DNA of 64,000 bases from Nitrosophilus kaiyonis. GTDB lineage: Bacteria > Campylobacterota > Campylobacteria > Campylobacterales > Nitratiruptoraceae. The notes under the pieces were generated by a model, which was not told the origin of the DNA, ran no database searches, and saw only the letters and a list, made by a program, of their open reading frames with translations. The stretch lies in contig NZ_AP025696.1 in assembly GCF_027943725.1 (NCBI RefSeq), forward strand, positions 1,031,501-1,095,500. Reading direction: 5' to 3'. Shown one piece after another: positions 10,537 to 55,909 of this stretch (within the stretch, counting starts at the first letter, position 1; every line of letters begins with the position of its first letter). The translations under genes were made by a program, and so were the position numbers.

Positions 10537-11820
10537 ATGAAAAAATTGATACTGATTTTAATATTTATTCAAGGGGTTATTATGGGGGCAAAGCTTGATT
10601 TTGTAGAGATAAACAATACAAAAATTCCATTTATTTTTGAAAATGAGACAAATCTTCCTATTATATCTTTGCAAATCGTTTTTCAAAAAAGTGGAAGCAT
10701 TGAAGATAAAAATCTTCCAGGACTTGCAAGATTTAGTGCAAGAATATTAAACCAAGGAACAAAAAAGCTTGGAAATGTGGGTTTTGCAAAGAAACTTGAA
10801 GAGAGAGCAATTCATTTTGGAGTAAGCACAGGTATTGAAACAATGGTTTTTGAGATGAGTGCATTAAAGAGCGAATTTAAAAAGGGCGCAAAACTTCTAA
10901 AAGAGCTTTTTGATGGACCAAATATCACTGAAGAAGCATATGAAAAAGTGAAAACAAACACTCTTGGAATGCTATTAAAAAAGGAGAGCGATTATGATTA
11001 TATTGCAAGTGTAAATCTAAAAAAGATACTTTTTAAAAACACTCCTTTAGAAAATCCGAGTGATGGAACAATAGAGAGTATAAAAAAGATAAAACTTGAA
11101 GATATAAAAGATTTTATAAATAGACATATTGCATTAAAAAGAGCTATCATTGTTATGGGTGGCGATATTGAAATAGATGATGCAAAAAAATTAATAAAAG
11201 ATATTTTGAAAGATATTCCAGTAGGTGAAATGGAAAAGCTTGGATTTTATAATGCAAGTGATAAAAAAGAAAATGTTATTATAAAAAAAGATACAAAACA
11301 ATCATATATATATTTTGGTGCTCCTTTTTATATGAATATTGATGATGAAGAAAATTATATAGCAAGGGTAGCTTCATATATTTTAGGAGCAGGAGGATTT
11401 GGCAGCAGGCTTATGGAAGAGATTAGGGTAAAAAGAGGGCTTGCATATTCAGCTTATTCAAGAATGATAGTTAATAAATCGCATAGCTATTTTAGCGGCT
11501 ATTTGCAAACAAAACTAGAATCTCAAGATGAGGCTATAAAAGTTGTAAAAGAGGTTATTAAAGATTTTGTAAAAAATGGGGCAACACAAAAAGAGCTTGA
11601 CTCAGCTAAAAAATTTCTATTAGGAAGCGAGCCACTTAGAAATGAGACACTTTCTCAAAGACTCTCACGCGCATTTAATGAATATTATAGGGGTAAACCT
11701 TTAGGATATAGTAAAAAAGAGCTTGAGAAGATAGAAAAATTAAATCTAAAAGATTTAAACAGATTTATAAAATCTCATCCTGAAATTACAAACTTATCAT
11801 TTTCAATTGTTACTAAGTAA
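10537..11820 (+). CDS. M16-family (insulinase-like) peptidase homologue, probably non-catalytic
   Basis: Exported member of the M16 zinc-peptidase family, with a signal peptide at about residues 1-17. Both M16 halves are present, and the C-terminal half keeps RLMEEIRVKRGLAYSAYS, the Arg/Tyr region that binds substrate. The zinc motif HxxEH of the N-terminal half is absent; its place is taken by ARFSARILNQGT (residues 64-75), where Arg65, Ala68 and Arg69 replace the ligands. At 427 residues it has the normal length of a one-subunit M16B protein. It may be the inactive partner of a catalytic subunit encoded elsewhere. The stop overlaps the recG start (TAATG). Confidence 0.88.
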   Translation: MKKLILILIFIQGVIMGAKLDFVEINNTKIPFIFENETNLPIISLQIVFQKSGSIEDKNLPGLARFSARILNQGTKKLGNVGFAKKLEERAIHFGVSTGIETMVFEMSALKSEFKKGAKLLKELFDGPNITEEAYEKVKTNTLGMLLKKESDYDYIASVNLKKILFKNTPLENPSDGTIESIKKIKLEDIKDFINRHIALKRAIIVMGGDIEIDDAKKLIKDILKDIPVGEMEKLGFYNASDKKENVIIKKDTKQSYIYFGAPFYMNIDDEENYIARVASYILGAGGFGSRLMEEIRVKRGLAYSAYSRMIVNKSHSYFSGYLQTKLESQDEAIKVVKEVIKDFVKNGATQKELDSAKKFLLGSEPLRNETLSQRLSRAFNEYYRGKPLGYSKKELEKIEKLNLKDLNRFIKSHPEITNLSFSIVTK

Positions 11821-13643
11821 TGAATAGTTTAATTGAAGAAAAAGATTTAGAAAAATTTAAAAAATTAAAAATTTCAAATATTTTGGAGCTATCTATCATA
11901 GCTCCAATAAAATATTATGATTATCGACTAAAATCAAATATTATAGAAAATGAAGAGTCTCTTTTTTTTATTGATATTAAAAATCTTCAAAAAACGCCAA
12001 AATATTTAAAAATTGATTCATTTTGTATAAATTTAAATAGAAATATTGAACTACTATTTTTTAGGTATAACTCTTATCATTTAAAAGAGTTTTCAATAGG
12101 CAAAAAAATATATATTTTTGGGAAAATTCAAAAAAATTTTCACAAACTACAAATTATTCAGCCAAAAAAAGTAAACGAAAAGTATATAGGAGAGATTTTT
12201 CCTGTTTATAAAACAAATTTGAGAGCAGATATTTTTAAGAATCTGATAAAAAAATATATAAAAGAGGAAAATTTTTTAGATTACAAAATTCCTCAAAAAT
12301 ATGTAAAAAATATATTTTTACTTCATAATCCCAATGAAAATTTACTTCAATATTATTTTAGATACAAGAGTTTTCCAAAAGAGATAAATAATTCTCTAAA
12401 ATTTATTGAGATTTATAATTATATGAATAAACTTGCAAAAAAGAAAAAAACAGTACCTTCTATAATGCAGTGCAATAAAGAGATAGATGGTTTTTTAAAA
12501 AATATACCCTTTAAGCTTACCCATGATCAGTTAAAAGCTATAAAAGATATTAAAAATGATTTATCAAAAAAAGTTGCTGCTAGAAGAGTAGTAATAGGTG
12601 ATGTTGGAAGTGGAAAAAGTATGGTTATGTTTGCTACTGCATATTTAGCCTATCCAAATAGAGCTATTTTGATGGCTCCAACAACAATTTTAGCAAATCA
12701 GCTTTATGAAGAGGCTAAAAAATATCTGCCAAATTTAAAAATAGCTCTTGTTACCTCTTCCTCAAAAGAGAAAAATTTAGAAAATTTTGATTTTATTATA
12801 GGTACCCATGCTCTTTTATATAAAAATCTTCCAAAAGCTTGTGTAATCATGGTAGATGAGCAGCATAGATTTGGTACAAATCAAAGAGATTTGCTAAATA
12901 GATTGATTTCATCTAAAAATGGATCACCTCACTATTTTCAATTTTCGGCAACTCCTATACCAAGAACAAAAGCATTGATAGATTCAAGTTTAGTTGATTT
13001 TAGTTTTATAAAAGAGACTCCTTTTAAAAAAGATATAACTACAAAGGTTATATCAAAAGAGGATTTTAAAGATTTGATAGTGCATATAAAAAATGAGATA
13101 AACAAAAATCATCAAATATTGATAGTCTATCCATTGATAGAATCAAGTGAAAATTATAAATATAAATCATTAGAAGAGGCAGCATCTTTTTGGAGAAAAT
13201 ATTTCAAAAATGTATATATAACCCATGGAAAAGATAAAGATAAAGAGGAAATTTTACTCGAATTTAGAGATAAGGGAGATATATTACTTGCAACTACTGT
13301 TATAGAAGTTGGGATATCTTTGCCAAGATTATCTACAGTTGTTATTGTTGGAGCTGAGAATTTAGGGCTTGCTACACTTCATCAATTAAGAGGAAGAGTA
13401 AGTAGGACTGGAATAAAAGGGTATTGCTATTTATACACTGAGGATAAAGAAAATAAAAGATTAAATGAATTTAGCAAAATATCAAGTGGATTTGATATTG
13501 CTGAGCTTGATTTAAAATATAGGCAAAGTGGAGATATATTAAGTGGGACTGAGCAAAGTGGAAAAACTTTTAAATGGATTGATTTGAGTGAAGATAAAGA
13601 GATAATTGAAAGTGCAAAAAGATTGTTGATAAACAGTAATTAG
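11820..13643 (+). CDS. recG: ATP-dependent DNA helicase RecG
   Basis: Branch-migration helicase that remodels stalled forks and Holliday junctions. It has an OB-fold-like wedge region in the N-terminal third, Walker A GDVGSGKS near residue 258, motif II as DEQHRFG, SATPIPRT, and the motif VI region HQLRGRVSRTGIKGYCYL. At 607 residues it is shorter than E. coli RecG (about 690), mainly in the N-terminal part. The start codon overlaps the stop of the M16 gene by 1 base. The helicase core leaves little doubt. Confidence 0.95.
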   Translation: MNSLIEEKDLEKFKKLKISNILELSIIAPIKYYDYRLKSNIIENEESLFFIDIKNLQKTPKYLKIDSFCINLNRNIELLFFRYNSYHLKEFSIGKKIYIFGKIQKNFHKLQIIQPKKVNEKYIGEIFPVYKTNLRADIFKNLIKKYIKEENFLDYKIPQKYVKNIFLLHNPNENLLQYYFRYKSFPKEINNSLKFIEIYNYMNKLAKKKKTVPSIMQCNKEIDGFLKNIPFKLTHDQLKAIKDIKNDLSKKVAARRVVIGDVGSGKSMVMFATAYLAYPNRAILMAPTTILANQLYEEAKKYLPNLKIALVTSSSKEKNLENFDFIIGTHALLYKNLPKACVIMVDEQHRFGTNQRDLLNRLISSKNGSPHYFQFSATPIPRTKALIDSSLVDFSFIKETPFKKDITTKVISKEDFKDLIVHIKNEINKNHQILIVYPLIESSENYKYKSLEEAASFWRKYFKNVYITHGKDKDKEEILLEFRDKGDILLATTVIEVGISLPRLSTVVIVGAENLGLATLHQLRGRVSRTGIKGYCYLYTEDKENKRLNEFSKISSGFDIAELDLKYRQSGDILSGTEQSGKTFKWIDLSEDKEIIESAKRLLINSN

Positions 13644-48080: not shown

Positions 48081-49028
48081 CTATTTTAGATTTTGAATTG
48101 TTTTAAAGCTTTTTTTGGGATTTCCATACTTATCAATAACTCCAAAGAATTTTTCAGCTTTTTTAAAGTATCCTTTTTGTGATGGTTGATCTATCAAATG
48201 AAAATAGTTTATTCCTATTAAGTTTGCCTCTTTTTTTATACATGGAAGAAGTTCGTTGAAAGTTTCTAATACTTTGTTTTGTAAATTATTATCTTTATAT
48301 GAAGATATTGCTAAATATGCTAAAAAAGTTGGCTTTTTATATCTTTTATAAAGAAATTTAGCAAATGCGAAAGCTCGATATGGAGTATTTAAAATTTGAT
48401 ATTTTTTATTTCTTGTTAATGCTCTCATTTCTTGAAAAGCGATAAAATCAATATATTTTATAGCTTTTATATATGATTTTTCATACATTTTCCAATTTAG
48501 TTCATCTTCTATTAAATCATAATCTCCAAAATCTCCCAAGCAAAATCCAATAAGAGTATTTTTATTATCTTCTTTTAAAATTTTTATACTTTTTATTAAA
48601 ATAGTATTAAATTTTTTACTTTTATAGATATCATTTTGATTAAATTCTGGGTTTAATATAACAATTTTTTTCCCTTTTATTTTTTTTAAAAAATTTGAAA
48701 ATTTTTTAAGATGTAAAAAATATTTTTTTCTATTTTTTTTAACAAAATCATTACATATTTCATCTTCAAACCAATAAAATATAAAGATCGGTGTTAATCC
48801 TTGTTTTATTGAACTATTAATTTTTTCAATCGAATACCAATTTTCATTCCAATCTTTTGTAATCCATAAAGAATATGAATTAAAATTTGATAGATTTTTA
48901 TTTAAAAAATTAGATATTAAAAATTTTTTGTTTTTAAATATGATATTTTCATATCCTCCAATACTAAGATAAAAATCTTGGGCAAAAATAGATGATATAA
49001 AAAAGAGAATCAATACTATTTTTTTCAT
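48081..49028 (-). CDS. Exported TIM-barrel-like glycoside hydrolase candidate
   Basis: A 315-residue protein with signal peptide MKKIVLILFFISSIFAQ. Features fit a hydrolase barrel: strands ending in acidic residues (IFIFYWFEDE, KIVILNPEFN, TLIGFCLGDFGDYD, YIDFIAFQEMRAL, and LIGINYFHLIDQ near the end). No family can be named with certainty. By context it would cut the polysaccharide made by this operon, as the C-terminal hydrolase domain of PgaB or the N-terminal one of PelA does, but here as a separate protein. The start overlaps the deacetylase stop (ATGA), and its stop lies directly next to the tRNA 3' end. Confidence 0.6.
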   Translation of the reverse strand: MKKIVLILFFISSIFAQDFYLSIGGYENIIFKNKKFLISNFLNKNLSNFNSYSLWITKDWNENWYSIEKINSSIKQGLTPIFIFYWFEDEICNDFVKKNRKKYFLHLKKFSNFLKKIKGKKIVILNPEFNQNDIYKSKKFNTILIKSIKILKEDNKNTLIGFCLGDFGDYDLIEDELNWKMYEKSYIKAIKYIDFIAFQEMRALTRNKKYQILNTPYRAFAFAKFLYKRYKKPTFLAYLAISSYKDNNLQNKVLETFNELLPCIKKEANLIGINYFHLIDQPSQKGYFKKAEKFFGVIDKYGNPKKSFKTIQNLK

Positions 49029-50875
49029 GATTCAAAAGGTATAGTTATATTTATAGTCGTTTTTGGAGGTAGTTTTTTAATTGTAATATCACTATATCTT
49101 TCTTTATTAAAGTTTTTTATGTAAATTTTAATACCTGAAAATTGAGAGTATGGTTTTTTAATTTTTGAAAATTTATTCCAATAGAGTCTGAATTTGAAAT
49201 TTTCAACATCTTTCGTATTTAAATTTGACACAGTTACAATAAAATTTTTTTCTGCCTTTTTAATATCTAAATTTATATTATAAAACTGTTTTATAATATT
49301 ATAAATCTGTTCTCCATTTGCTACATTTTTTTTATTTATTTTAAGATAATTAAAAAATTTAGCCAAAGTAATAATATTATCTTTATATGTAAAAAGATGT
49401 GTATGGACACTTAAAGTATATATTCCATTTAATGATGTTATGAATTTCATCTCTTCAATAATATTTTCAAAAATCTCTTTTTTTGTCATATCTGTTTCAG
49501 CCATATATGCATAATCATCTGTGCCGACACGAGGTATAGTCAGTAGTGTATCATTGTAAAAAAATGGAAATAGTTGGTCTTTGTTTTTTTCCAATACATA
49601 TCTATATCCACTATTTGTTAACCATTTTATAACATTTTTATCTACCTCTTCTCTTGGTGGTCTAAAACCTATTACTTTTCTTTTTGATAATTTTTCCAAT
49701 ATTTCTTTTGAATATTTTATCTCTTTTTCTAATTTTTTTTCACTTTCATTTAATAAATTTGTATGTGAATAGCTATGTGATGCAATCTCTAAATATATAT
49801 TTTTACTTGATTGAATAAAAATATCCCTATTCTTTTCTGCTAAATTTGCTACACAAAAAGCTGTAGTATAAAGTTTATATTTTTTTGATAAATTGGAAAA
49901 ATTTTTCAAATTTTCAAATTTATATTCTGTATCTTCAGAAATAAATACTAAATCTTTTTTATCAATGTAAGGGAATTTTGCAATGCTATATCCATTATAA
50001 GCAAAGTTTATAATATCTAATAATAAATTATCATAATAGTTGCTATTTTCTTTTGAAGAGAAAAATGAATAAAATGGAAAAGAGAAATATATCCACATAC
50101 CTTTTTTATAATTTCCATGCCATAATACACCAGATTCATTTATAGAAAGTCTTTTATTAAATTGATCAAGTGGTGGAGAAGTTAAAGACCAGTTGGTTAG
50201 TGTAATATCTGGAATAGAAGAAGATTTAAAATAGGGAATATTATCATAAAGTACTAAATCAGCTCTTTTACCATTTTTTGAACTATTGTGAAAAGGGGAT
50301 AATATTTTTGGTACTATAAATATATCACTGTTTTTTGTATTTAAATGAGAATATTTTTTGTTATTTTTAAAATTAGTTATTTTCTTTACAAAATTATCTC
50401 CTAAAAAATTGCCTTTTTCATCACTATAAGCACAATTAAAATTAAAAATTAAACTTCCTCCATTTTCTAAAAATTTCAATATATTTTTTTGTATTTTTTT
50501 AGGTAAGGATATTGCATCAATTAAAAGTAAGGTAGATTTTTCTGGCATTTTTTTTATCTCATTTTCTTTAATAACAACCGGTTTATATCCATTTTTATTA
50601 AGAACATTTTTTATTGTCTCAATATTCCATAAATAATTTTTTTCTCCAACTCCTATATCATTAAATCTTTTAATGGTTGAATTTGATTTTAAAATATAAA
50701 TCTTTTTCTCTTTTTTTGAAATAGGAGCAAATACATTTATATCAGTAAAATTTTGAAAAATTTTTATAGTTAAATATGAAGATAAAAAGAGTAAAAAAAT
50801 AGCAATTAAAAATATTTTCAATATATAAGGAAATAAAAAAATATTTTTTTGAGGCACATTATTTTTCAAAATCAT
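49025..50875 (-). CDS. Membrane-anchored polysaccharide deacetylase
   Basis: 616 residues. One TM helix lies near 15-40. A periplasmic glutamine-amidotransferase-like Rossmann region (about 60-295) follows, then a NodB-type deacetylase domain. The metal site is formed by Glu314-Asp315 (SEDTE) and HSYSH at 367-371, with the RPP motif in GFRPPREE at 405-411. A C-terminal beta-sandwich begins near 535. The layout recalls PelA/PgaB rather than simple chitin deacetylases. I start at ATG 50875, which has GAGG at proper spacing; an upstream in-frame TTG at 50887 is less likely. It overlaps the small membrane gene upstream. Confidence 0.82.
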   Translation of the reverse strand: MILKNNVPQKNIFLFPYILKIFLIAIFLLFLSSYLTIKIFQNFTDINVFAPISKKEKKIYILKSNSTIKRFNDIGVGEKNYLWNIETIKNVLNKNGYKPVVIKENEIKKMPEKSTLLLIDAISLPKKIQKNILKFLENGGSLIFNFNCAYSDEKGNFLGDNFVKKITNFKNNKKYSHLNTKNSDIFIVPKILSPFHNSSKNGKRADLVLYDNIPYFKSSSIPDITLTNWSLTSPPLDQFNKRLSINESGVLWHGNYKKGMWIYFSFPFYSFFSSKENSNYYDNLLLDIINFAYNGYSIAKFPYIDKKDLVFISEDTEYKFENLKNFSNLSKKYKLYTTAFCVANLAEKNRDIFIQSSKNIYLEIASHSYSHTNLLNESEKKLEKEIKYSKEILEKLSKRKVIGFRPPREEVDKNVIKWLTNSGYRYVLEKNKDQLFPFFYNDTLLTIPRVGTDDYAYMAETDMTKKEIFENIIEEMKFITSLNGIYTLSVHTHLFTYKDNIITLAKFFNYLKINKKNVANGEQIYNIIKQFYNINLDIKKAEKNFIVTVSNLNTKDVENFKFRLYWNKFSKIKKPYSQFSGIKIYIKNFNKERYSDITIKKLPPKTTINITIPFES

Positions 50876-51077
50876 TTTTTTCCTCAAATTCTATTTTCTT
50901 AAAGAAAAGATAATTGCTATTTTCTATTTTTAAAGCTTCTTCATAAGGAATGATTCTATTTTTTAATTTTGATTTTTTTTCTCTAGCTTTATAAAGGAAA
51001 TAGGCAATAATTCCAAAAATTAGAGTCAAAATAGTAATAATTAAAATTACAAAAGATAATAAAGCTATAAAATTCAT
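50859..51077 (-). CDS. Small single-helix membrane protein of the exopolysaccharide operon
   Basis: 72 residues with one strong membrane helix (about 5-30) and a charged cytosolic tail. No domain is recognised. Its position directly after the synthase gene (1-base overlap) and before the deacetylase suggests a PgaD-like accessory subunit of the synthase. PgaD, however, has two helices, so this is positional inference. Confidence 0.7.
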   Translation of the reverse strand: MNFIALLSFVILIITILTLIFGIIAYFLYKAREKKSKLKNRIIPYEEALKIENSNYLFFKKIEFEEKNDFEK

Positions 51078-52373: not shown

Positions 52374-54563
52374 TTACCATCTATATAATAGCTTGAAGTT
52401 TACTTCTCTATACCAGTAATTTTGATTATTAGAGCTTTTTGATAAAGAATTTCCTTGTATAAAAGATAATTTTATACTTGAATGTTGATCAAATCGATAC
52501 TCTAACCAAGATGAAATTTGATATAAAAAGCTACTTTCTTTAAAACTATATCCAATTTCAGGCTTAAATAAGAAAGAATAGTTGTTTTTTATTTTTTTTG
52601 TCTCTATACCTAAAAATGTACTATCATAAAATTTAGGAGAATAGTAATAATCACTTGTTTTTGAATTAAGATGATACCAGCCAGAAACAATAAAACCATT
52701 TTCAAAAGAGTAATATTTTTTAAATAGATATTGATAAACAAATTGAGCAGTCAAAGCTTTATTCCCATCATCAACTTTATCAAATTCAATAGATGCCCAT
52801 ATATATTTTTTCTTTTTTAGATCTATATCTTTATAAAAATCAAAATCTAAAGAGATTGCATCAATTCTTTCATCAAAAAGATATTTTCTATATTTTAAAA
52901 ATCCATAATTTCTTTTTTTGATAGTAGTTCTTATTGAGACTTTTTTATATGTAGTTTCATATTGAAAATATGGGCTAAAATCAGTTTTTGAATTAAATTT
53001 GTCAAAATTAATTCCAAAATTATAGTTTGAATATTTTAAAGATGTCTGTAAAGTTTTTCCCTTTAGACTTTCATCATCAATAAGTTTCCAAATTTGTGGT
53101 GATATATGTAGATTAACTTTGTCGTTAAATATCTTAGAAAAAACTATTTTTTTATTATAAAAGTTAATATGATCTTTATCACTATAATGATAAAAATCAA
53201 ACTCTAAAGTTTTATCGTTTTTTAGTATATTTTCTTCTATATCAATTTTATCTTCTATATTATCTTTTGAAAGCAATTGAGATGTATTTTTTATTTTAAT
53301 TTTTTTTAATTTATAAAGATCCAATACACTATATTTTGGTTTGATATCTTTTTTGATTCCTTCAGCTACTTTTACTTTTGTTAGATTCTCTTCTAAAGAT
53401 TTTATCTTTTGTATTAATTTTTTTTCATTTTTACATTGGATTTTAAACTCTTTAATATTTTTTTCAAGTGATTCGTATATATTTAATATTTGAAGTAAAT
53501 TAATATATTCATAAAAATATTGGCAATTAACAAATTTTATTTTTTCTAAATATTTAATAGCTTTTTTATACTCTTTTCTTTCATTAAAAATTTTGTACAT
53601 TTTATAATAATGTTTTTCTCTAAAAATAATAAATTCTTTATTATTTTTAAATTTTTGTGACATATATAAAAAAAGATTTTGAGCTTCATGAATTTTATTA
53701 AACCATATATAATGATTATATAGCTCCTTATATGCCAAAAAAGTTTGTGTTATTTGTGCATATTTTTTTAAATAATTAAATCCAACATCTTCATTTTTCA
53801 ATCTTAAATATAAAATTCCTAACTCTCTTAAAACAGATATATCTAAAGGATTTTTCCCATAATAAACTTCATAAAATTTAATTGCTTTTTTTATATTTCC
53901 TGCTTTTTGATTATAAAGTGCGAGTTTATAAATGTATTGAATATTATCTGGATTTGATTTATATAATTTTTCATATTTTTTAATTAAATATTGATATTTT
54001 TTTTCGATTACCATTAAAGCTTCATTTACTTCATCACTTTTGTAAAATTTCAGATATTCATTGAAATATTTTTTTGCTTTTTTATAATCTCCATTCCAAT
54101 AATATATAAATCCCATATATTTAAAAGATTTTATTTTAAGTTTTTTATTTTTACTATTTTTGATTATTTTTAAAAATATTTTTTTGCTTAATTCAAAGTC
54201 ACCATTCCATGCAAGATATTTAGCAATTTCAAAATCTATCTCTTCATCTTTTAAACCAATTTTTTTTAAAGATTTTCTAGCATCTTTTATATTATGAATG
54301 TAGACTTGATACATTGCAAGTACTTTATATGCATATTTATAGAAAGGATATTTTGAAATAAATTTTTTTAAAAAATTAATTGTTTTCTTTTTTGATTTAA
54401 ATATATATAGGTATTGTGCATATTTTTCTATAGGAGAGAAATCATAATCTTTCTTAAAATTTATAATAATCTCTTTCTCAGATTTATTAAATAGATTTTG
54501 TTTTAAATTTTCATTTGCAAAGAGAGATAAAAGAAGCAAAATTAAAATGAAAATCATTTTCAT
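52374..54563 (-). CDS. TPR and beta-barrel outer-membrane exporter (PgaA-like)
   Basis: 729 residues. The signal peptide is MKMIFILILLLLSLFA. An alpha-helical TPR superhelix follows to about residue 400 (for example AGNIKKAIKFYEVYYGKNPL and KAKKYFNEYLKFYKSDE). The last 250 residues consist of alternating strands and end in an aromatic residue (EVNFKLLYRW), the outer-membrane barrel signature. This is the layout of PgaA and PelB, which carry and modify the polymer through the outer membrane. It overlaps the upstream gene by 4 bases (ATGA). Confidence 0.85.
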   Translation of the reverse strand: MKMIFILILLLLSLFANENLKQNLFNKSEKEIIINFKKDYDFSPIEKYAQYLYIFKSKKKTINFLKKFISKYPFYKYAYKVLAMYQVYIHNIKDARKSLKKIGLKDEEIDFEIAKYLAWNGDFELSKKIFLKIIKNSKNKKLKIKSFKYMGFIYYWNGDYKKAKKYFNEYLKFYKSDEVNEALMVIEKKYQYLIKKYEKLYKSNPDNIQYIYKLALYNQKAGNIKKAIKFYEVYYGKNPLDISVLRELGILYLRLKNEDVGFNYLKKYAQITQTFLAYKELYNHYIWFNKIHEAQNLFLYMSQKFKNNKEFIIFREKHYYKMYKIFNERKEYKKAIKYLEKIKFVNCQYFYEYINLLQILNIYESLEKNIKEFKIQCKNEKKLIQKIKSLEENLTKVKVAEGIKKDIKPKYSVLDLYKLKKIKIKNTSQLLSKDNIEDKIDIEENILKNDKTLEFDFYHYSDKDHINFYNKKIVFSKIFNDKVNLHISPQIWKLIDDESLKGKTLQTSLKYSNYNFGINFDKFNSKTDFSPYFQYETTYKKVSIRTTIKKRNYGFLKYRKYLFDERIDAISLDFDFYKDIDLKKKKYIWASIEFDKVDDGNKALTAQFVYQYLFKKYYSFENGFIVSGWYHLNSKTSDYYYSPKFYDSTFLGIETKKIKNNYSFLFKPEIGYSFKESSFLYQISSWLEYRFDQHSSIKLSFIQGNSLSKSSNNQNYWYREVNFKLLYRW

Positions 54564-55909
54564 GAGAAGATATATGCCTTTTGATAAAAGATATCAAGAG
54601 AATCAAAAGATTTTCCCAATAAAAGATAATCTTTAAAATCGCTAAATTTATTTTCTAAAATTTCATAATTATTTTTTTGAAAATTTAACATTAAAAGATA
54701 CAATTTTTTCTCTTTTTTATCAAAAAAGACTCTATCATACTTTCTTAGTCTATTTATTAAATCATCTATATGAAGATTTTGATTGTATTTAAATTGAAAT
54801 ATAGTAAAAAATAGCCTTTTTTTTATTAATAGGTTAATAACCTCTAAAAAATCCTTTTTTTCTTTAAAATAGTTCACATTTATTTCTATCTTTTTATTAC
54901 TGTAAAAACTATTTTCAAGACTTTTTTCTAATAAAAAGATATAATCACTTAGATTATAATAGGTTGTAATATCACTACATCCATTATTTATAGCATTTAT
55001 TTTATCTTCTGTTCTTATAAACTTTTTCTCTAAAAGTAATAAAATTTGAGTATTAAGAGGACTTTCCTTTAAAAATTTACATGATTGAACATCTATATCT
55101 TCACTATGATAAATTGTAATATCTGGATTTTTTAAAAATTCTTCTAAAATTTTTAAAGGATCATTTTCTATAGTAAGATTTATAAAATTATTATTATCAA
55201 ATATGTAACTATGAAGCTTTGAAAGATACTCATCTTTTGTAAAAACTAGTATATTTTTTTTGGTAACTATTTTTTCATTCTTTTTTGTAATTAACTTAAA
55301 TCTATTTTTATCTATTTTAAAATAAAACTCATTTTCTTTCAATGGAAATAGAGAGTATTTAATAGAAATATTTTTTGAAAAATTATCAAAATTTTTAACA
55401 TCAAAATTTATATCAATGAATTGGTATAAGTTTTCCTCAATCATTTCATATAGTGGATTTTCTTTATTTAATAAAACAAATACTCTTTTTTGATATTTTT
55501 GAATTATATCTGTTAGATTTTTTATAAAAAATTCAATATCATTAAGATCCATATTCTCAAAAAATTGTGAAAATCTATGAAAAATAATATTTTTTGCACT
55601 ACTTTCTTTTATTATTTTTTCAATCTCTTCTATAAATAGCAAAAAAGAGTATTTTTCTTTTATATCTTTCCAATCTGGCTTAATTGTGAAAATATCAAGA
55701 TGATTATATAAATCTTTAAAATTATCAAAATTTTTATGTAAAATATTTATCTTCTTTATTAAAATATTTTCATATTGAGATGAAAAAATAATAGCTTTTT
55801 CATCAAAAGCATTTTTAATTAACCAGGAAGCAAAAGTGAGTTTGCCTGTACCAGAATTTCCAGATATAGCTATATATGAAGAATCATTCAATATTTTATA
55901 AAGTTCCAT
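54560..55909 (-). CDS. RecA-like ATPase / REC-like / degenerate GGDEF protein (BcsE/PelD-like c-di-GMP receptor candidate)
   Basis: 449 residues, cytosolic, first gene of the exopolysaccharide operon. Residues 1-205 look like a KaiC/RecA-type ATPase with P-loop GNSGTGK at 17-23. Residues 217-333 follow a receiver fold (ILVFTKDEYL, TQILLLLEKKF, INNGCSDI) but lack the phosphorylation Asp. Residues 350-449 resemble a GGDEF domain: Arg389-Lys-Tyr-Asp392, then five residues, then KKEKK where GGDEF would stand. So the active site is lost, but an RxxD with I-site spacing remains. BcsE has a similar domain series. The role as c-di-GMP sensor is inferred. Confidence 0.65.
   Translation of the reverse strand: MELYKILNDSSYIAISGNSGTGKLTFASWLIKNAFDEKAIIFSSQYENILIKKINILHKNFDNFKDLYNHLDIFTIKPDWKDIKEKYSFLLFIEEIEKIIKESSAKNIIFHRFSQFFENMDLNDIEFFIKNLTDIIQKYQKRVFVLLNKENPLYEMIEENLYQFIDINFDVKNFDNFSKNISIKYSLFPLKENEFYFKIDKNRFKLITKKNEKIVTKKNILVFTKDEYLSKLHSYIFDNNNFINLTIENDPLKILEEFLKNPDITIYHSEDIDVQSCKFLKESPLNTQILLLLEKKFIRTEDKINAINNGCSDITTYYNLSDYIFLLEKSLENSFYSNKKIEINVNYFKEKKDFLEVINLLIKKRLFFTIFQFKYNQNLHIDDLINRLRKYDRVFFDKKEKKLYLLMLNFQKNNYEILENKFSDFKDYLLLGKSFDSLDIFYQKAYIFS

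Follow-up and report, generated by a model that had tools for sequence, protein, structure and literature searches.

A minus-strand gene in a 64,000-nucleotide stretch of the Nitrosophilus kaiyonis genome (contig NZ_AP025696.1, positions 1,031,501 to 1,095,500; this whole stretch is the window, and its own numbering is used unless stated otherwise) heads an operon for a synthase-dependent polysaccharide, and we conclude that its product is probably a BcsE-type receptor for cyclic di-GMP (c-di-GMP) that clamps the ligand and activates the synthase of its own operon by proxy. The protein consists of a nucleoside triphosphatase (NTPase)-like, a receiver and a GGDEF domain whose catalytic sites are degenerate, it has an RxxD motif in each of the latter two domains that is invariant among its relatives and in register with the motifs of BcsE, and it occurs together with, and usually beside, genes for a tetratricopeptide repeat (TPR)-barrel exporter, a membrane glycosyltransferase of family GT2, a small protein with a single transmembrane (TM) helix and a polysaccharide deacetylase. 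The parts of the receptor are as follows.

54560..55909, minus strand: open reading frame (ORF) of the BcsE-like receptor, 449 aa, with degenerate KaiC/RecA-like NTPase, receiver and GGDEF domains
Residues about 1-190: degenerate KaiC/RecA-like NTPase domain
55838..55861, minus strand: degenerate Walker A motif, G17-NSGT-G22-K23-L24, with Leu replacing Ser/Thr
Residues about 218-335: degenerate receiver domain
55004..55015, minus strand: RxxD of the receiver domain, R299-T-E-D302, equivalent to R306ATD309 of BcsE and invariant in 28 of 28 members
54902..54907, minus strand: F335-Y336 at the receiver end and linker helix, invariant
Residues about 345-430: degenerate GGDEF domain
54734..54745, minus strand: I-site RxxD of the GGDEF domain, R389-K-Y-D392, equivalent to R415TGD418 of BcsE and invariant in 27 of 27 members
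54704..54718, minus strand: KKEKK (residues 398-402) in the beta2-beta3 hairpin at the place of GGDEF, with no catalytic signature

An initial annotation of this DNA had described the ORF, a P-loop GNSGTGK at residues 17-23, a receiver-like fold lacking the acceptor Asp, and an R389-x-x-D392 separated from KKEKK by five residues, and all of these are present exactly as claimed, the five residues being RVFFD. The P-loop is in addition degenerate, because Leu24 follows it where Ser or Thr is needed and because His111, with His found there in 22 of 25 members, occupies the expected position of the Walker B Asp, and the domain is probably catalytically dead, as has been reported for BcsE. The receiver was recognised in a search of PDB chains with the family profile, which matched the Bacillus subtilis PhoP receiver (E=1.6e-6), and its acceptor Asp is replaced by His in the window protein and by Asn in most relatives. 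Pfam and NCBIfam gave weak KaiC/STAND matches only, and searches of PDB chains, whether by sequence or by profile, led to KaiC and response regulators and not to BcsE. The protein is absent from the 22 GGDEF-model matches of its genome and has no GGDEF/GGEEF signature, PADLOC gave no match to it, and its identification as a defence STAND NTPase was considered and rejected.

Searching 60 relatives returned seven homologues with 26-32% identity, and when 399 genomes of Campylobacterales were searched with a profile, about 40 had true members, the remaining weak hits being ordinary receiver domains. No member was found outside this order in a phylum-wide search of 397 genomes, and a search of the plasmid collection gave no match to the window receptor. 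A pattern scan of genome contigs found two loci only, which says little about the range outside Campylobacterales because the pattern covered the P-loop alone. The family forms two subgroups, one close to the window sequence and one in the family f7, the latter also having extra copies outside the operon, some of them reduced to the receiver and GGDEF domains (REC-GGDEF; 268-284 aa), that lie between housekeeping genes. Orphan copies adjoining glyS (L059, L060, L061, L063, L064 and L066), some of them REC-GGDEF only, have both RxxD motifs, and the copy at L060 also adjoins genes for a class-II DAHP synthase, an ARMT1-like protein and a metallophosphatase.

Among the 27-28 aligned members, whose median pairwise identity is 24%, full invariance is limited to six columns, R299, D302, F335, Y336, R389 and D392. 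Conservation of the GGDEF-domain motif in orthologues had been set as a test by the initial annotation, and R389 and D392 are kept in all 27 members covering the site. The second invariant RxxD, R299/D302, had gone unmentioned, and since it completes the composite I-site of BcsE the case for a BcsE-like receptor is stronger than was first seen. All four residues are also invariant in copies without the whole NTPase domain, and they are retained in the f7 operon copies, in which the P-loop is gone, so that selection acts on the two RxxD motifs.

This pattern bears on the alternative that the protein is an assembly scaffold or an ATP-dependent factor with structural RxxD motifs, c-di-GMP being sensed elsewhere, by the GT2 and the small protein in a manner similar to PgaCD, or nowhere. 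Such a role would fit the partial retention of Walker A (G22 and K23 in most members), the constant presence of the small protein with the synthase, and the precedent of the PgaC/PgaD synthase, which senses c-di-GMP although it has no binding domain of a known kind (PMC8461298). However, one subgroup has lost the P-loop while keeping both motifs, two separate invariant RxxD at the places used by BcsE are hard to explain structurally, and the small protein, which has a single TM helix, is not similar to PgaD, and we therefore consider this explanation improbable.

The region 350-449 had been predicted to be GGDEF-like. A profile alignment of the receptor family with 18 GGDEF domains from its own genome placed R389/D392 on the I-site RxxD and KKEKK on GGDEF, with a score of 21.4 compared with a mean of 10.8 (standard deviation (SD) 2.0, maximum 17.3) for 150 column permutations, and together with the fold of an orthologous module described below this bears the prediction out. 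The arrangement is that of PleD and WspR, in which a receiver precedes a GGDEF fold and five residues separate the I-site RxxD from the GGDEF position, and the fold and the register taken by themselves would fit a diverged but active diguanylate cyclase. Yet the receptor, unlike PleD and WspR, has neither the acceptor Asp nor the GGDEF signature and carries an extra receiver RxxD and an NTPase-like domain. The KKEKK stretch that replaces the signature itself varies among relatives, in which it is often shorter by two residues, and the catalytic signature is kept in no member seen, which leaves cyclase activity with almost no credence. PelD, the c-di-GMP receptor of a polysaccharide synthase, likewise uses a degenerate GGDEF domain with an RxxD I-site; PelD differs in having TM helices and a GAF domain, in place of which the receptor has an NTPase-like domain and a receiver that carries a second RxxD. 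Identification as PelD was rejected, there being no GAF match and the N-terminal domain being KaiC-like.

BcsE, which belongs to the type II cellulose secretion system of Escherichia coli, grips an intercalated c-di-GMP dimer with R415TGD of its degenerate GGDEF domain and R306ATD of its degenerate receiver, and the two motifs together bring the dissociation constant from about 2.5 uM to 140 nM (PMC11470070); its domain architecture is described in PMC7439463. With a view to comparing the two families, an alignment of nine BcsE sequences from Enterobacterales, Vibrionales, Alteromonadales and Burkholderiales was set against a 25-member alignment of the receptor family using HHalign. Unguided, the alignment paired R299 with R306, D302 with D309, R389 with R415 and D392 with D418, and the C-terminal half scored 23.6 as compared with a mean of 11.8 (SD 1.9, maximum 18.7) for 200 column permutations and 10.0 for the reversed profile.

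Structure prediction and comparison with BcsE had been put forward as a further check. A fold of the window receptor from a three-row alignment gave a good NTPase-like domain (KaiC/FlaH by Foldseek) and left the receiver unresolved, and for this reason the REC-GGDEF module of an orthologue (L017) was folded, which gave a confident model (predicted local distance difference test (pLDDT) 80.5, predicted template-modelling score (pTM) 0.71). The top seven matches of this module in the PDB were all E. coli BcsE chains (9fo7_E with E=4.6e-9 and 6ybb_E with 9.8e-9 among them), followed by REC-GGDEF proteins of the PleD and WspR type. Both RxxD motifs are predicted to be placed as in BcsE, one at the start of the fourth helix of the receiver and the other at the helix-strand junction before the GGDEF hairpin.

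Several observations weigh against this relationship. The HHalign E-value between the two families is marginal when taken alone (0.013-0.022), and because it is modest we put the weight on the register and the permutation null. The Pfam model of BcsE, PF10995 (CBP_BcsE), did not detect the window receptor and gave no match above cut-off in 299 genomes of the order. The receiver of the window protein itself was modelled poorly, the confident model being that of the orthologue. The match of the orthologous module to BcsE has Foldseek TM-scores of 0.36-0.39 and a root-mean-square deviation of about 14-16 A over the two domains, so that the single domains match and their relative placement does not, and the match does not distinguish an open from a closed arrangement. 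Finally, neither of the BcsE partners BcsR and BcsQ was seen in the receptor operon, although no genome-wide search for them was made.

The receptor and BcsE have in common the order of three degenerate domains, the RxxD in both receiver and GGDEF domains, and linkage of the gene to synthase-dependent polysaccharide production, in an operon that also encodes a small single-TM protein. Because the receiver RxxD and the NTPase-like domain are shared, we favour, on the strength of these sequence features, common BcsE-like descent over separate degeneration from REC-GGDEF proteins. The receptor differs from BcsE in its lack of a Pfam match, its identity of about 13-16% in the profile alignment and its length, which is about 75 aa shorter; it is paired with a non-cellulose GT2 that lacks PilZ and with a deacetylase, and genes of cellulose synthesis (bcsA/B, bcsF, bcsG) do not accompany it in the operon. 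It probably works like BcsE, but in view of the missing Pfam match and the missing association with cellulose it should not be called BcsE.

By analogy with BcsE, R299/D302 and R389/D392 would form a composite pocket that clamps c-di-GMP, probably as an intercalated dimer and most likely with high affinity. Binding would close and compact the REC-GGDEF module, and the closed receptor would then dock on the inner-membrane GT2 synthase encoded in the same operon, or stabilise it, such that at high c-di-GMP the polymer would be made and exported through the TPR-barrel protein. The NTPase-like domain probably serves as a platform for oligomerisation or anchoring, and the small protein would perhaps hold it at the membrane. 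The genome contains 22 GGDEF domains, and c-di-GMP should therefore be available in the cell. As Pfam finds no PilZ domain in the window GT2 and the operon is without PgaD, the receptor is probably the c-di-GMP input of the operon. More tentatively, and short of what we would call probable, the operon may represent an undescribed class of Campylobacterota system for synthase-dependent exopolysaccharide secretion, controlled by proxy throughout, in which a dual-I-site receptor of BcsE type anchored by a BcsF-like protein is the sole c-di-GMP input to a synthase without a site of its own.

The receptor gene adjoins the export and synthase genes in 22 loci including the window, lying directly upstream of the barrel gene in 17 of them (again with the window) and between barrel and GT2 in the other five (f7 and similar). 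Within a sample of 398 genomes it is present in 31 of the 34 that have the deacetylase (Fisher p=4e-34, not corrected for phylogeny). As for the exceptions, the only receptor-less operons, L113 and L114, are on contigs that end before the expected place of the receptor, and the deacetylase of genome G032 has no GT2 or small ORF alongside. In two genomes, G042 and G057 (L009/L115 and L014/L116), the receptor is unlinked and the operon is located elsewhere.

Ten of these loci have genes for an OmpR-type response regulator and a histidine kinase immediately upstream, and BcsE has been reported to contact Nus antitermination factors (PMC7439463), both of which would suit a receptor that binds c-di-GMP but acts on gene expression or on the adjacent two-component pathway rather than directly on the synthase. 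The window, L013, L055 and L057 nevertheless keep receptor and operon without such a pair immediately upstream, the constant partners are the synthase genes, and the receiver has lost its acceptor Asp, which makes a target in signalling unlikely and leaves activation of the synthase as the reading that we prefer.

The operon is tightly packed, with the receptor first and the remaining genes following in this order.

52374..54563, minus strand: TPR and predicted beta-barrel outer-membrane export protein, the barrel being suggested by its sequence and by analogy with BcsC/PgaA
51077..52372, minus strand: membrane GT2 processive synthase, best NCBIfam match PgaC_IcaA with 195 bits against a cut-off of 422
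50859..51077, minus strand: small single-TM protein, 72 aa, between GT2 and deacetylase and absent from the ORF list
49025..50887, minus strand: membrane-anchored polysaccharide deacetylase, its TTG start overlapping the small ORF; the true start may lie downstream
48081..49028, minus strand: secreted 315-aa protein without a family match, the usual last gene of the operon

In f7 operons the 315-aa secreted protein is replaced by a GH8 glycosidase, and it is possibly a new glycosidase family. The deacetylase, together with the GH8 enzyme of f7, suggests a partly deacetylated amino-sugar polymer.

A TPR-barrel exporter, a GT2 and a deacetylase in one operon are also found in PgaABCD/HmsHFRS, which make poly-N-acetylglucosamine (PNAG), and the initial annotation had proposed a BcsE-style receptor on a Pga-like operon. 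The architecture, the I-site and the GGDEF-like region of that proposal stand, and binding of c-di-GMP is expected by analogy, but the attribution to Pga does not hold. The genome has its own canonical pgaABCD on the plus strand some 22 kb from the receptor operon (G000:C1 about 1109820-1115850; L146 2821-8852), with NCBIfam scores of 625 (PgaA), 895 (PgaB), 618 (PgaC) and 68 bits (PgaD) that are all above cut-offs, whereas the GT2, barrel and deacetylase of the window fall below the Pga cut-offs. The window GT2 has 35% identity to the genome's PgaC and 57-62% to the GT2s of other receptor operons. With pgaABCD separate and the GT2 nearer to those of other receptor operons, this is a second synthase system with its own lineage, a distinct and apparently unnamed one, and unlike PgaABCD it has no PgaD.

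The small ORF and its counterparts at 24 other GT2/deacetylase loci encode about 57-72 aa and score 52-112 bits with a profile, and every complete operon of this kind that was examined has one. The products share one N-terminal TM helix, a basic cytosolic stretch and, at the C-terminus, Y-[ILV]-[FY]-F, and the ORF is apparently translationally coupled. In size and topology they are like BcsF, which holds BcsE by adding a strand to the sheet of its NTPase-like domain (PMC11470070), although no sequence similarity to BcsF was detected (E=0.12 in a five-sequence search). There is likewise no similarity to PgaD, and identification as PgaD was rejected. By analogy the protein is a candidate for either a BcsF-like anchor or a PgaD-like synthase subunit, both roles being equally possible because it is always found with both synthase and receptor.

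Among the titles and abstracts listed by a search of open-access literature (subscription papers being outside this scope) we found no BcsE-like or GIL-domain protein outside cellulose systems; BcsE-type receptors are reported there for cellulose alone, as an addition to a synthase with a PilZ sensor of its own. A dual-I-site receptor on a PilZ-less, non-cellulose synthase would, if our reading is correct, make activation by proxy a transferable module, offer a less complex setting for testing whether a receptor of this type suffices by itself to switch a synthase, and bring another architecture to the c-di-GMP inputs known for polysaccharide synthases (PilZ, the PgaCD interface and PelD). It also suggests how Campylobacterota with many diguanylate cyclases may control their biofilm matrix.

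The surroundings of the operon vary between loci. In genome G119 homologues of bcsA (with PilZ), bcsB and bcsC lie immediately upstream of the receptor operon (L053 546-9039, plus strand). Upstream of the receptor at L010, near an OmpR-type regulator, is a histidine kinase unusually fused to FecR-like and TPR domains (10717-12612, minus strand). Genome G009 has, about 8 kb upstream of its receptor gene, a gene with a weak PilZ match (L013 18463-19593, minus strand), which heads a cluster encoding large, apparently secreted or membrane proteins.

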